From positions 1 through 64,000 of the forward strand of contig NZ_MDWE01000037.1 in NCBI RefSeq assembly GCF_001715195.1: a stretch of 64,000 nucleotides of DNA, read 5' to 3'. The notes beneath the pieces are model-generated. The model did not search any database. It was not told where the DNA came from and worked only from the letters and a program-made list of their open reading frames with translations. Made by a program: the position numbers and the translations under genes. This DNA is from Rhodohalobacter halophilus (GTDB lineage: Bacteria; Bacteroidota; Rhodothermia; Balneolales; Balneolaceae). This document shows positions 1,965 through 7,311 of this stretch, piece by piece; position 1 is the first letter of the stretch, and every line of letters begins with the position of its first letter.

Positions 1965-3311
1965 CTATAGAAGTTTTTCAGCCAGGCTCAACCCATTTTT
2001 AATGCAATCGGGAACCGAGATCCCATACCTGAAATTACCGGCCATGTTTAAACCCCGGTTTTGACTCTCAATTTCATTCAGCACATCCAGAACCTCATCA
2101 TACCCTACGTGGTAGGCCGGAATGGACTTTGGCCAATAGATGTGATCTTTGAATTGAGGATCACCGTTAAGCCCAATCAAATCGTTCAATTCATCCAAAA
2201 CGATGGTTAACAACGTTTCGCTGTCATTCTCAGCCAGATCGGGCTGCCGCCCGCCGCCGATAAAAACCGTAAGGAGGTGTGAATCCTCAGGTGCGCGATT
2301 TTCAAACAAGGTAGATGAAAAAAGTGCGCCAAGAATCTTGCGGTTCTCCGCTTCCGGCACTAAAAACCCAAATCCGTCCAGTGGATGATCTACATCTTCT
2401 TTTTTAAAACCGAGTAACATTACCGACAGAGGCGGATACTTTACGTTCTGTAAAGTCTGAAGCTGGGCATCCGTAATCGGTACAAGCTGCTTGTTGAGTT
2501 TGTATAAAGGTGTATTCATTACAACTTCATCATACGGACCAAACTCTCCCATGTTGGTTTTCAGTGTCCACTGTCCATTTGATTCTCGAACTGAATGCAC
2601 TTCATGATTCAGATGTACATGGTTTAATTCGGAAGCTATAGAGTTGGGAAGCTGCTGTAATCCATTTTTGAATGATATCAGTTCCCGGTCAATCCTACCC
2701 TGCTCGTTTCGTTTTTTAGACCCCGCTATAGCTCCCCAGATCATCGAACCGTACTCCTGTTCAAGATTATCCATCAGTGGAAATGCGTGCCGCAGCGAGA
2801 GGTCTTCAGGCCTATTCGCATAGATTCCGGCTACGAACGGGTTGAGGGCATAATCCAGAATATCACTTCCAAGTCGTCTCTCTACAAACTCAGCAACGGT
2901 TTGATCCCGATCGCTATTTCTTGGTATAAACGGCTCCAAAAGAACCCTCAACTTACCTGTTATACTGAACAGAGGAGTTTTAACGGCCGACATCAACGAA
3001 GATGGCAGCGGCTCAAGATGTCCATTTTTAACAATGAATCTCTTTTCGGCCTCAGGGTTGGCAGTCACTTTATCGCCTGACAGCCCCACTTCGGTTAGAA
3101 ACTCGGCCACCTGCCGATCTTTCAACAACAGAGTGTTTGGGCCATACTCTGCCTGCCACTGATCATTGCGCACCGTTTTTATAGCTCCGCCCGCCTCAGC
3201 TTTTCGCTCAAAAATTTCAACTTTGGCGCCTTTATTTTGAAGTTTCCATGCGGTAACCAGTCCGGTAATCCCAGCCCCAACAACTGCTATTTTACTATTT
3301 TTACTTGACAT
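1965..3311 (-). CDS. hemG: Protoporphyrinogen/coproporphyrinogen oxidase (HemY type)
   Basis: A 448-residue FAD-dependent oxidase of late heme synthesis. The N-terminus has the Rossmann dinucleotide motif GAGITG (12-17), then an acidic residue at the end of strand 2 (IFERK) and an EAGGAIKT segment typical of the HemY/PPO flavoproteins. The C-terminus closes with a second FAD-contacting segment (NRGLNMAGNFRYGISVPDC). The family oxidises protoporphyrinogen IX or, in the coproporphyrin-dependent branch, coproporphyrinogen III. Sequence alone does not separate the two. It diverges from a TonB-dependent receptor, and the 149-bp gap holds two palindromic operator-like sites. Iron- or heme-dependent control is therefore likely (inference). 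Confidence 0.9.
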   Translation of the reverse strand: MSSKNSKIAVVGAGITGLVTAWKLQNKGAKVEIFERKAEAGGAIKTVRNDQWQAEYGPNTLLLKDRQVAEFLTEVGLSGDKVTANPEAEKRFIVKNGHLEPLPSSLMSAVKTPLFSITGKLRVLLEPFIPRNSDRDQTVAEFVERRLGSDILDYALNPFVAGIYANRPEDLSLRHAFPLMDNLEQEYGSMIWGAIAGSKKRNEQGRIDRELISFKNGLQQLPNSIASELNHVHLNHEVHSVRESNGQWTLKTNMGEFGPYDEVVMNTPLYKLNKQLVPITDAQLQTLQNVKYPPLSVMLLGFKKEDVDHPLDGFGFLVPEAENRKILGALFSSTLFENRAPEDSHLLTVFIGGGRQPDLAENDSETLLTIVLDELNDLIGLNGDPQFKDHIYWPKSIPAYHVGYDEVLDVLNEIESQNRGLNMAGNFRYGISVPDCIKNGLSLAEKLL

Positions 3312-3351: not shown

Positions 3352-3418
3352 TTTAGAACAAATCTAAACAACCATTGCATGCAGGTTTTATGCTCCATAA
3401 ATTTAGACTCATTCTAAA
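3352..3418. promoter_or_regulatory. Pair of TTTAGA-N5-TCTAAA palindromes (putative DtxR/MntR-type operators)
   Basis: Two perfect inverted repeats of the same form, TTTAGA-N5-TCTAAA, lie at 3352-3368 and 3402-3418, with centres exactly 50 bp apart. The second extends by one more base pair on each side. Their 17-19 bp length and symmetry resemble DtxR/IdeR/MntR-family boxes, and a DtxR-family gene lies 3.3 kb away (6643-7311). They sit between hemG and the TonB receptor gene. The second overlaps the presumed -7 element of the receptor promoter. Which regulator binds is inferred, not shown. Confidence 0.6.
3375..3405 (+). promoter_or_regulatory. Putative Bacteroidota-type promoter for the TonB receptor
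   Basis: A TTG at 3375-3377 is followed after 20 bp by TAAATTTA (3398-3405), one mismatch from the -7 consensus TAnnTTTG with its usual -33 TTG. The -7 overlaps the second palindrome, so binding there would block initiation. Confidence 0.4.
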
Positions 3419-3460: not shown

Positions 3461-5692
3461 ATGAATTTAAACAAACTAACTACGCTTCTATTTGTTTCTC
3501 TTCTGTTCGGTACAACTGCGATCGCCCAGGAGAGATCAACTGCTCAAAAAGATACCACAGATTCTATCGATAAGGTAATTCTCGACCGGATTACCGTAGT
3601 CGGTGCCCCTGCCTGGATCAGTAACATTCCGGGATCTGCAAGCTATGTGAGCCCGGAACAGCTCCAAAGGCAAAGTTACACAGATATCAACAGAATTTTG
3701 AGAACCGTAAGCGGAGTCAATATCCAGGAAGAAGAAGGATTTGGCTTACGTCCAAATATCGGCCTCAGAGGTGCCGGTGTTGAGAGAAGTTCAAAAATTA
3801 ACCTGATGGAAGATGGCGTACTTGCCGCTCCGGCTCCCTATGCTGCACCGGCTGCTTACTACTTCCCAAACATGGGGCGAATCAGCTCTGTTGAGGTTCG
3901 AAAAGGATCTTCTCAAATCAAGTATGGCCCGAATACAACCGGAGGTGCCATCAACGTAATTTCCACACCGATACCAACTGAACGTAGCGGACGGGCCGAA
4001 GTAAGCATTGGCGAGCGATACTCGAACAAGCTCTATGCAAATTATGGAAACCGAACAGAACGCTTTGGTTACATGATTGAAGCGATGCAGATTGGAGATA
4101 ACGGGTTTAAAAATCTGGACAATGGAGACGACACCGGATTTCTGGTGCGCGATTTTGTCGGTAAGTTCATGGTTCGCTCTGCTCCTGAAGCTTCCACGTT
4201 CCAGCGGCTTGAACTAAAACTTGGATATAATGATCAAGTAAGTGACGAAACCTACCTTGGTCTGACCCGTGAAGATTTTGCAGTATCACCTTTCAGACGA
4301 TACGCCGGCTCACAAACCGATCAGATGAACACTGAGCACAAATCTATCATGGCACGCCATTTTGTTATGTTTAACAGCAACATCGATGTCACCACTACGC
4401 TCTATCACAATGATTTTGCGAGAGGGTGGTACAAGCTTGGCAGCGTTAATGGGACCGGAATTTCATCTGTACTGAATGATCCGGCATCCTATGCAAACGA
4501 ACTGGACATTCTTCGCGGTCAGAACAGTGCAGACGATGCCCTGAATGTGCGATCCAACAATCGCGAATATTTTTCTCAAGGTGTTGAGTCAATCTTGGCT
4601 CTCAACTTCAGCGATGGCAGCATCAGTAACGAAATTGAGCTGGGCGTTCGCCTTCACCGCGATGAGGAAGATCGCTTCCAGTACGAAGATCTCTACAGAA
4701 TGGAAAATGGAGCCATGATTTTAACCTCAGCCGGTGCACCCGGAACACAAGCCAACCGGGTTGGGTCTGCGACCGCACTTTCCATCTACCTGAAGGATGA
4801 CATTGTAATGGATCGATGGACATTTACACCGGGAGTTCGACTCGAGAACATCTGGTTCTCCAATAAAAATTATGGTACCAACGACCCCGACCGGACCGGC
4901 TCATCACTATCAGAAAATGAATATACCGTCACAGAACTTATCCCGGGTGCAGGCGTAACATTTAAAGCATCTGACCAGATCACACTGATTGCAGGAATCC
5001 ACAAAGGGTTTTCACCCCCAAGCCCAGGATCCTCTCCTGAAACTGAATCAGAATCCAGTGTAAATTATGAACTCGGTTTTCGCTTGGCAGATGACCTGAT
5101 TCGAACTGAAATCATCGGATTTTACAGCGATTACAGCAACCTGCTCGGGTCAGATCTGGAAGCAGGCGGAGGAGGCGGTACATCCGCACAATTCAATGCC
5201 GGAAGTGTTGAAGTAGTTGGGCTTGAAGTTTCTGCAGAAACCGATTTCGCAGAGATGTTCGGCACAACCTCACTATCCATTCCATTCAACATAAACTACA
5301 CGTACACCAAGGCTGAATTCCGGACATCATTCGACAGCAGTTTTGGTCCCTGGGGAACTGTACAGGAGGGAGATCAGCTTCCATTTATTCCTGAGCACCA
5401 ATTGAATATGGCTCTATCACTCAACTGGGATAGAGTACAGTTTAACATCAACAATGTGTTCTCTCCAAAAATGAGAACCGTAGCCGGACAGGGCGACATT
5501 GAGGATCAAAACAGCACCGACAGTTACTTTATTACAGATGTAAATGCAACGTATAATGTAATGAATAACATTGACCTCTTTGTAAATGCCCGAAATCTAT
5601 TGAACGAAACCTATATCGTTTCTGACCGGCCTGCAGGTGTACGTCCGGGCCTCCCAAGAACATTTATGGGAGGATTTAGAGTAAATCTCTGA
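3461..5692 (+). CDS. TonB-dependent outer-membrane receptor (FecA/ferric citrate type)
   Basis: A 743-residue TonB-dependent transporter. A signal peptide spans about residues 1-22 (ends AIAQ). The plug domain (about 40-175) contains the FecA-like signatures GLRPNIGLRG, an LMEDGV segment and PYAAPAAYYFP, then EVRKGSSQIKYGPNTTGGAIN. The rest is the 22-strand barrel with the usual closing block (LFVNARNLLNETY and a C-terminal FMGGFRVNL). There is no N-terminal carboxypeptidase-like extension and no FecA signalling domain. Plug similarity suggests a ferric siderophore or ferric citrate. Divergence from a heme-synthesis gene could equally suggest a heme/porphyrin link. A terminator follows, so it is probably monocistronic. 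Confidence 0.92.
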   Translation: MNLNKLTTLLFVSLLFGTTAIAQERSTAQKDTTDSIDKVILDRITVVGAPAWISNIPGSASYVSPEQLQRQSYTDINRILRTVSGVNIQEEEGFGLRPNIGLRGAGVERSSKINLMEDGVLAAPAPYAAPAAYYFPNMGRISSVEVRKGSSQIKYGPNTTGGAINVISTPIPTERSGRAEVSIGERYSNKLYANYGNRTERFGYMIEAMQIGDNGFKNLDNGDDTGFLVRDFVGKFMVRSAPEASTFQRLELKLGYNDQVSDETYLGLTREDFAVSPFRRYAGSQTDQMNTEHKSIMARHFVMFNSNIDVTTTLYHNDFARGWYKLGSVNGTGISSVLNDPASYANELDILRGQNSADDALNVRSNNREYFSQGVESILALNFSDGSISNEIELGVRLHRDEEDRFQYEDLYRMENGAMILTSAGAPGTQANRVGSATALSIYLKDDIVMDRWTFTPGVRLENIWFSNKNYGTNDPDRTGSSLSENEYTVTELIPGAGVTFKASDQITLIAGIHKGFSPPSPGSSPETESESSVNYELGFRLADDLIRTEIIGFYSDYSNLLGSDLEAGGGGGTSAQFNAGSVEVVGLEVSAETDFAEMFGTTSLSIPFNINYTYTKAEFRTSFDSSFGPWGTVQEGDQLPFIPEHQLNMALSLNWDRVQFNINNVFSPKMRTVAGQGDIEDQNSTDSYFITDVNATYNVMNNIDLFVNARNLLNETYIVSDRPAGVRPGLPRTFMGGFRVNL

Positions 5693-5716
5693 TATTCGAA
5701 TATCCATCCTCAATCC

Positions 5717-5750
5717 AAAAAAGCAGGCTCAATATCGGGCCTGCTTTTTT
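5717..5750 (+). terminator. Rho-independent terminator after the TonB receptor
   Basis: A GCAGGC/GCCTGC stem (5723-5728 with 5739-5744), extended by A6/T6 flanks, ends in a T run. It lies 25 bp after the receptor stop codon. Confidence 0.85.
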
Positions 5751-5819
5751 CATTTCTCCTCTTTTTTAAAAGTCCCCCTTTGTGATTACCTTCCCATCCC
5801 ATAAAAAATTCATTAAAAG

Positions 5820-6638
5820 ATGACGATATCTATATTAGGGTGCGGTTGGTTAGGTTTTCCGCTTGCACAAAACTTACTGAGCCTTGGTTTCTCGGTTAAA
5901 GGTTCCACTACATCAGAAAAAAAAGTTAAAACACTCAAACAGGCCGGTATTGAAACCTACCTGATAAAACTCCCCGAACAGTTGGAGTCGGAAGAAAACC
6001 GTGATTTTTGGAATTCGGATATTCTGTTTTTGAATATCCCGCCCTCCAGAGGGGATTCCGATGTAGAAAAAAACTATCCTACTCTTATACAGAAAGTTGT
6101 TGATAAAGCAACATCTGCCGGAATTGATTGGATCATCTTTGCCAGTTCAACATCAGTATACAGCTCTACCGGTGGAGTGACTGACGAAAGTGATGCGAAA
6201 CCGGGAAGTGCATCCCGGCCGTCGGGTGAAGCCGTGTTAAGAGCGGAACAAGTTCTGCAAAGTTCAACGCTCGATGTATCGATTATACGTTTTGGCGGAC
6301 TCTATGGATATGGGCGCCATCCGGTTAAATATTTAGCCGGAAGAAAGGATCTGTCTGATGCCTCAAAACCGGTCAACCTGATCCATCAAACAGATTGCCT
6401 GAATATTATTCAGAAAATTATTGAGCTGAATAAGAGAAATGACGTATTTAATGCCGTTTCGGACGGGCACCCGCCCAGAAAAGAGTTCTACATTTCGGCG
6501 GCGCACCATTTTAATCTGCCCGAACCTCAGTTCAGTAAAGATGGCCGAAAAGATTACCGGGTGATATCGAACGAAAAGGTTAAGAGAGAACTGGAGTACA
6601 CATTCTCCTATCCAAATCCTATGGATCACACGCCATAG
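5820..6638 (+). CDS. NAD(P)-binding epimerase-like protein (YeeZ type)
   Basis: A 272-residue Rossmann-fold protein. The N-terminus ISILGCGWLGFPLA carries GxGxxG (residues 7-12). The middle has an FASSTSVYSSTGG segment and later an IRFGGLYGYGRHP segment, which match the extended SDR/NAD-dependent epimerase family, especially the YeeZ-like members that lack the classical Tyr-x3-Lys arrangement. Substrate and reaction are not known for this subgroup. ATG start. It converges on the DtxR-type gene with only a 4-base gap and no terminator between. Confidence 0.75.
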   Translation: MTISILGCGWLGFPLAQNLLSLGFSVKGSTTSEKKVKTLKQAGIETYLIKLPEQLESEENRDFWNSDILFLNIPPSRGDSDVEKNYPTLIQKVVDKATSAGIDWIIFASSTSVYSSTGGVTDESDAKPGSASRPSGEAVLRAEQVLQSSTLDVSIIRFGGLYGYGRHPVKYLAGRKDLSDASKPVNLIHQTDCLNIIQKIIELNKRNDVFNAVSDGHPPRKEFYISAAHHFNLPEPQFSKDGRKDYRVISNEKVKRELEYTFSYPNPMDHTP

Positions 6639-6642
6639 GGAT

Positions 6643-7311
6643 CTAGCCGTTCTTGTTCACAACGTAGATATCTGACGCCACAGAGGCACCGATTGCCACA
6701 CCTTTCTCCCCTTCAACAAAGATATGGATCGGACCGTCAAAAGGTTCACGCCTGGAGACTTTAATTTTTACCCCGGGAATCAGGTTTCTCTCTTCGAGGT
6801 ATCGGAGCAGATCAGGGTCTTGATTTTTCACCCTGCGTATTATGCAAGGGGTCTCCTCTTTAATCTCCAACAGAGAAAAGAGATGTTCCTGTGGCATGGA
6901 TCCATCTTTTGCCGGGATTGGGTCACCGTGCGGATCGTACTTCGGATTGTTCAACAGCTCGGCAATCCGGTCCTCAAACTGCTCCGAAATGTGATGCTCC
7001 AGCTTTTCTGCCTCATCATGTACTTCATCCCACGAATATCCCATCATCTCTTTCAGGTAAAGCTCCAGAAGCCTGTGATGCCGGATAATTTCAAGTGCAA
7101 TCTCCTCCCCGGATTTTGTCAGCCTTGACCCGTAGTATGATTCATATTCAACAAGCCCCATCTTTGAAAGTCTTTTCACCATGTTGGTGACGGAAGCACC
7201 CGCAACGCCCATCTCTTCAGCCAACCGGGAGTTGGATACACCGTTCTCACCCTCCTGATCGAGTTTGTAGATCGCTTTTAAGTAATCTTCAACAGATTGA
7301 CTTCTCGACAT
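6643..7311 (-). CDS. DtxR/MntR-family metal-dependent transcriptional regulator
   Basis: A 222-residue regulator with the full DtxR layout: winged helix (about 1-65, with the recognition segment VAGASVTNMVKRLSKMG), metal-binding/dimerisation domain (about 66-140) and a C-terminal FeoA/SH3-like domain (about 150-222). In the metal site, EVHDEAEKLEHH matches the DtxR segment in which the ligand Cys102 is replaced by Glu, as in Mn-sensing MntR. The Asp of the N-terminal VEDY segment is kept, but MntR Glu11 is Lys. Mn versus Fe sensing is thus ambiguous. The best candidate targets in the window are the paired palindromes at 3352-3418. A thioredoxin gene lies 24 bp upstream in the same direction. 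Confidence 0.88.
   Translation of the reverse strand: MSRSQSVEDYLKAIYKLDQEGENGVSNSRLAEEMGVAGASVTNMVKRLSKMGLVEYESYYGSRLTKSGEEIALEIIRHHRLLELYLKEMMGYSWDEVHDEAEKLEHHISEQFEDRIAELLNNPKYDPHGDPIPAKDGSMPQEHLFSLLEIKEETPCIIRRVKNQDPDLLRYLEERNLIPGVKIKVSRREPFDGPIHIFVEGEKGVAIGASVASDIYVVNKNG

Follow-up and report, generated by a model that had tools for sequence, protein, structure and literature searches.

Conserved 17-bp palindromes ahead of iron and heme genes in Balneolaceae: operators most likely read by Fur and not by the neighbouring DtxR-family protein

Introduction

In a 64-kb stretch of the Rhodohalobacter halophilus genome (64,000 nucleotides, hereafter the window), two palindromes of the form TTTAGA-N5-TCTAAA stand between hemG and the gene for a TonB-dependent receptor, and a gene for a DtxR-family regulator lies close by. 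Are these palindromes operators and, if so, which protein reads them? We conclude that the two boxes are genuine conserved metal-related operators, of a known general kind, and, with a probability of about three in four, that they are operators of an iron regulon whose reader is a repressor that senses iron, the best candidate being the single canonical Fur of this genome (encoded on contig C23). The DtxR-family protein, which an earlier note on this DNA had named as the regulator, is then most likely the wrong one.

Results

Both palindromes match the motif exactly, and profile matches bear out the three gene calls on which the earlier note had built (hemG, the TonB receptor and the DtxR-family gene). 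The features of the locus are as follows:

1965-3311, minus strand: hemG, protoporphyrinogen oxidase, divergent from the receptor gene (TIGR00562, above cut-off)
3352-3368, no strand: box 1, TTTAGAACAAATCTAAA, exact TTTAGA-N5-TCTAAA; probable iron operator just 5' of the receptor promoter -35
3375-3380, plus strand: -35 element TTGCAT; its TTG lies 5-7 bp past box 1 in 22 of 22 genomes
3398-3403, plus strand: -10 element TAAATT, overlapping box 2 and spaced 17 bp from the -35
3402-3418, no strand: box 2, TTTAGACTCATTCTAAA, exact TTTAGA-N5-TCTAAA; probable iron operator over the receptor promoter -10/start region
3461-5692, plus strand: FecA-like TonB-dependent receptor (Pfam PF00593/PF07715; best solved relatives are FecA)
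6643-7311, minus strand: DtxR-family regulator of 222 aa with a FeoA domain (PF01325, PF02742 and PF04023, all above the Pfam cut-offs)

Box 1 lies upstream of hemG, 41 bp from its start. The receptor promoter was not found by a generic consensus scan of the window alone; it is visible as a conserved arrangement across the 22 genomes that carry the receptor with its box pair, several of which have TTGACA or TTGACT as the -35, while the 17-bp spacing to a TAAATT-like -10 is the best one in 18 of them. The element that the earlier note had called a -7 like box does overlap box 2, and is better named a -10 hexamer.

Could the boxes be chance palindromes in AT-rich intergenic DNA? Four observations bear on this question: (i) The window holds two exact sites where 0.02 are expected from dinucleotide-preserving shuffles, and none of 100 such shuffles of the window contained two. 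(ii) The whole genome (an assembly of 3.12 Mb in 92 contigs) has 6 exact sites, against 2 for the reversed-pattern control, and every one of the six precedes iron or heme genes. (iii) On the side of chance, sites with one mismatch are no commoner in this genome than in the control (17 extra sites against 27), which means that, where conservation is lacking, only near-perfect sites carry meaning. (iv) The boxes have been kept in 22 genomes although the DNA around them has diverged. In these genomes the mean pairwise identity of the 12 fixed bases is 96% for box 1 and 94% for box 2, figures that are somewhat favoured by the selection of box pairs at no more than two mismatches per box; the N5 centres share 45% and 54%, the flanking DNA 30-31% (30% for the 25 bp 5' of box 1) and the middle of the spacer 36%. 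The spacing of the two boxes, 49-51 bp in all 22 genomes, and the promoter held between them are not favoured by that selection. We therefore give chance practically no weight.

The centres of the boxes are informative as well. Among 82 distinct exact sites, the central base is flanked by T in 68% and by A in 68%; whereas the outer symmetry follows from the search pattern, this T-N-A centre does not. A narrower pattern, TTAGAATNATTCTAA, was tried and set aside. Its enrichment is weak and uneven, and the inner bases are thus better regarded as preferences than as fixed positions.

The six exact sites of the genome fall at four places:

(i) the intergenic region between hemG and the FecA-like receptor gene, two exact sites
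(ii) contig C12, ahead of the genes for a TonB siderophore receptor and, behind it, a PepSY protein, two exact sites 62 bp apart
(iii) contig C3, ahead of hemH-hemA-hemC-hemD-hemE, one exact site
(iv) contig C19, ahead of a FutA/FbpA-type Fe3+-binding protein, one exact site 35 bp upstream

Here hemH was assigned by TIGR00109 and the names hemA, C, D and E come from reading the translations; the closest solved relatives of the C19 protein are ferric-binding proteins of the FutA/FbpA type. In the relatives, the genes downstream of boxes include those for Rrf2, a HemS/ChuX heme-degrading protein, DUF4856, PepSY and TonB receptors, and the Rrf2 gene behind a box is probably the first gene of a SUF operon. 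Exact sites with no iron or heme neighbour do occur in the relatives (L083 and L088, for example). Overall, the scan of this genome agreed with the expectation of the earlier note: exact sites are rare in it, and they are concentrated before iron and heme genes.

Of the 27 genomes of the family in which the Fe3+-binding protein has a clear orthologue and the DNA upstream of it could be read (that of G015 was unreadable), 26 carry the box there, in 23 cases exact and in 3 with one mismatch; the box is missing before this gene in G031. In other families of the order, 10 of the 17 scored upstream regions of the Fe3+ gene show the same core, ATTTAGA followed at an unchanged distance by TCT, though their right half is weaker; individually, these forms are modest when set against shuffles.

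The earlier note had proposed that the boxes are the operator of the nearby 222-aa DtxR-family protein, which would put the iron and heme genes under a DtxR/IdeR-like switch. Some of the evidence is in its favour: this is the only DtxR-family gene in the genome, it lies about 3.2 kb from the boxes and keeps this linkage in many congeners, and boxes 1 and 2 share the TTTAG half-site with the order's MntR boxes, which leaves some room for a DtxR-family reader that uses another spacing. However, in the congeners G006 and G010 the dtxR gene is gone from the locus, with only 78 and 87 bp between the genes that flank the gap, and both genomes keep the box pair together with an exact box before the Fe3+ gene. 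The one dtxR match in G006 (95% complete) is a paralogue of 38% identity, located elsewhere between gcvP and a ZIP transporter gene, and no dtxR match was found in G010 (62% complete). Boxes are also present in two genomes in which no standalone homologue was found: G055 (84% complete) and G042, whose only DtxR match is fused to an ABC permease. In the one fused protein that was scanned, that of G037, Pfam found the metal-binding domain and did not find the DNA-binding domain. We favour loss of dtxR over ancestral absence because G028 has the gene in the corresponding position and, in other genera, it adjoins the same neighbour genes; G006, G010 and G026 are weakly placed in the hemG tree.

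The boxes follow the receptor. Five genomes (G003, G012, G016, G023 and G028) have hemG and dtxR at the locus but no receptor there, and in none of them does a site with up to two mismatches precede hemG; in G028 the receptor sits elsewhere and the boxes are with it. G005, whose receptor is likewise gone from the locus, has a two-mismatch relic of a box before hemG. That the boxes go when the receptor is lost or moved, while hemG and dtxR stay, indicates that they serve the receptor. Control of hemG by the boxes is doubtful for the same reason, since the upstream region of hemG loses them when the receptor is absent, and hemG is at most a possible secondary target. The idea of heme synthesis and uptake under one switch thus survives in part: hemHACDE and the iron-uptake genes share the box, and the inclusion of hemG is in doubt.

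The DtxR-family protein itself seems suited to another task. It has D9, E102, E105 and H106 at the positions of Met10, Cys102, Glu105 and His106 of DtxR, the metal ligands of that protein (PMC4805248), and also H79, E83 and H98. The Met10 and Cys102 signature of the iron-type DtxR/IdeR proteins is absent from it, and the MntR-type D9/E102 is found instead. These residues, like the gene neighbourhoods and 16-bp boxes described next, are suggestive only; the protein is more likely a MntR, that is, a manganese sensor with a 16-bp box of its own. Its relatives of roughly 50% identity in G036, G037 and G043 adjoin metal-transport genes (in G037, those for ZnuA, an ABC ATPase and an ABC-3 permease), and TTTAG-N6-CTAAA boxes lie between mntR and a TonB receptor gene in all three. 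The half-sites TTTAG and CTAAA, which boxes 1 and 2 have in common with DtxR/MntR/IdeR operators, are thus combined with a different length: the boxes at the MntR operons of the order are 16 bp long, whereas boxes 1 and 2 are 17 bp, one base longer (N7 against N6 between these half-sites), and persist without a local DtxR. A relative, PgMntR of Porphyromonas gingivalis (PMC4805248), is like the window protein a manganese-related DtxR-family member from the Bacteroidota with a C-terminal FeoA domain; in PgMntR, however, the Cys102/Glu99 position is occupied by Cys and the gene lies with that of its Mn transporter, whereas the window protein, with Glu102, is encoded on its own. PgMntR binds the promoter of its Mn transporter and not that of an iron transporter (PMC4805248). 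Gene losses, spacing and ligands all speak against the neighbouring protein, which we consider a very improbable reader of the boxes.

In the R. halophilus genome as a whole, TTTAG-N6-CTAAA is not enriched (4 sites against 12 in the control), and we take seriously just two of these sites, those whose core is CAAG/CTTG. One, TTTAGCCTTGCCTAAA (G000:C3:9041-9056, L212), lies before a ZIP transporter gene; the other, TTTAGTCTTGTCTAAA (G000:C1:2268-2283, L210), lies before the gene for a TonB receptor that is 39-40% identical to the mntR-linked receptors. Both are candidate targets of the window DtxR protein. No window-type dtxR was found in G006 or G022; in both, the ZIP gene has no 16-bp box and has its own adjacent DtxR paralogue (38%), encoded between gcvP and ZIP at L152 (G006:C42) 4736-5404 and L153 (G022:C15) 5360-6013. 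It is possible that one manganese regulator has been replaced here by another.

Which protein, then, reads the 17-bp boxes? Elimination, geometry and the set of targets make Fur the likeliest binder. A close Fur homologue, 65-96% identical, is present in 57 of the 58 genomes; the exception, G044 (88% complete), whose only Fur match has an E value of 1.9e-6 and 25% identity, has no exact site. The protein has Glu, within a VIEF/VDF stretch, where the PerR structure has Asp. Glu in place of PerR Asp104 fits iron sensing rather than peroxide sensing. The second Fur-family gene of the R. halophilus genome has a weak likeness to Zur and adjoins the gene for a probable metal ATPase.

The boxes resemble those of the Fur family (Fur, PerR and Zur) in several respects: (i) they have the odd-centred 17-bp symmetry and the preferred T-N-A centre of the 7-1-7 box, of which TTATAATNATTATAA and TAAATCGTAATNATTACGATTTA are examples (PMC545781); (ii) they occur in multiple copies at an iron-uptake promoter and overlap its -10/start region; and (iii) their targets (TonB receptors, Fe3+ ABC transport and heme genes) are typical of a Fur regulon. 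In contrast, the outer bases of this predicted site are TTTAGA...TCTAAA and those of the Fur box are TGATAAT...ATTATCA, and in a comparison of sequences the boxes did not match the E. coli Fur consensus. The difference from the PerR box TTATAAT-N-ATTATAA lies mainly at the fourth position counted from the centre, where G replaces T. Fur-family boxes do differ between lineages, those of delta-proteobacterial PerR being one case (PMC545781). No box was found upstream of fur itself, and the remaining families of the order show no enrichment of exact boxes, only the weaker forms being seen, though their Fur is 65-72% identical. A Campylobacter PerR paper was set aside, its TTTAGA matches being primers.

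Since Fur enters the argument by elimination, another iron-responsive transcription factor, for example a Rrf2- or MerR-like protein, might read the boxes instead; MliR, a MerR-like regulator of iron, is known from a marine Bacteroidota species (PMC9478572). We regard this as unlikely: Fur is found nearly everywhere among the genomes and fits the geometry, whereas Rrf2, whose gene follows a box in two relatives, looks like a target.

Discussion

With Fur as the preferred reader, the locus would work as follows. Once iron is bound, the repressor would sit on box 2, covering the -10/start region of the receptor promoter, and on box 1, beside its -35, and plentiful iron would shut off the FecA-like receptor; through the same box it would repress the siderophore receptor with its PepSY protein, the FutA-type Fe3+-binding protein and hemHACDE. 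We infer both repression as the effect and iron as the signal.

A search of the literature for the motif strings returned no papers and turned up no iron-regulon operator for Balneolaceae; within the literature searched, the operator seems undescribed in this lineage. Our results offer a testable one, set apart from a very similar, probable manganese operator. They are also a worked example of an operator whose reader is probably not the product of the nearest regulator gene, a question that gene losses in relatives decide. More tentatively, two unrelated regulators of one cell, Fur for iron and the DtxR-family MntR for manganese, may use the same TTTAG/CTAAA half-sites and be kept apart mainly by a length of 17 against 16 bp and by the central bases, a scenario that we hold to be conceivable at less than even odds.

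Two further observations were made. Box pairs spaced by 49 bp precede DUF4856 genes at L092 2436-2501, L099 2518-2583 and L229 5447-5512, an arrangement that suggests some part in iron metabolism or its control for these uncharacterised proteins. Near the siderophore receptor gene, L007 9003-15593 encodes a 1412-aa NTPase-like and a 617-aa nuclease/helicase-like protein and adjoins a MazG-like gene; judged from the translations alone, this might be a defence island.
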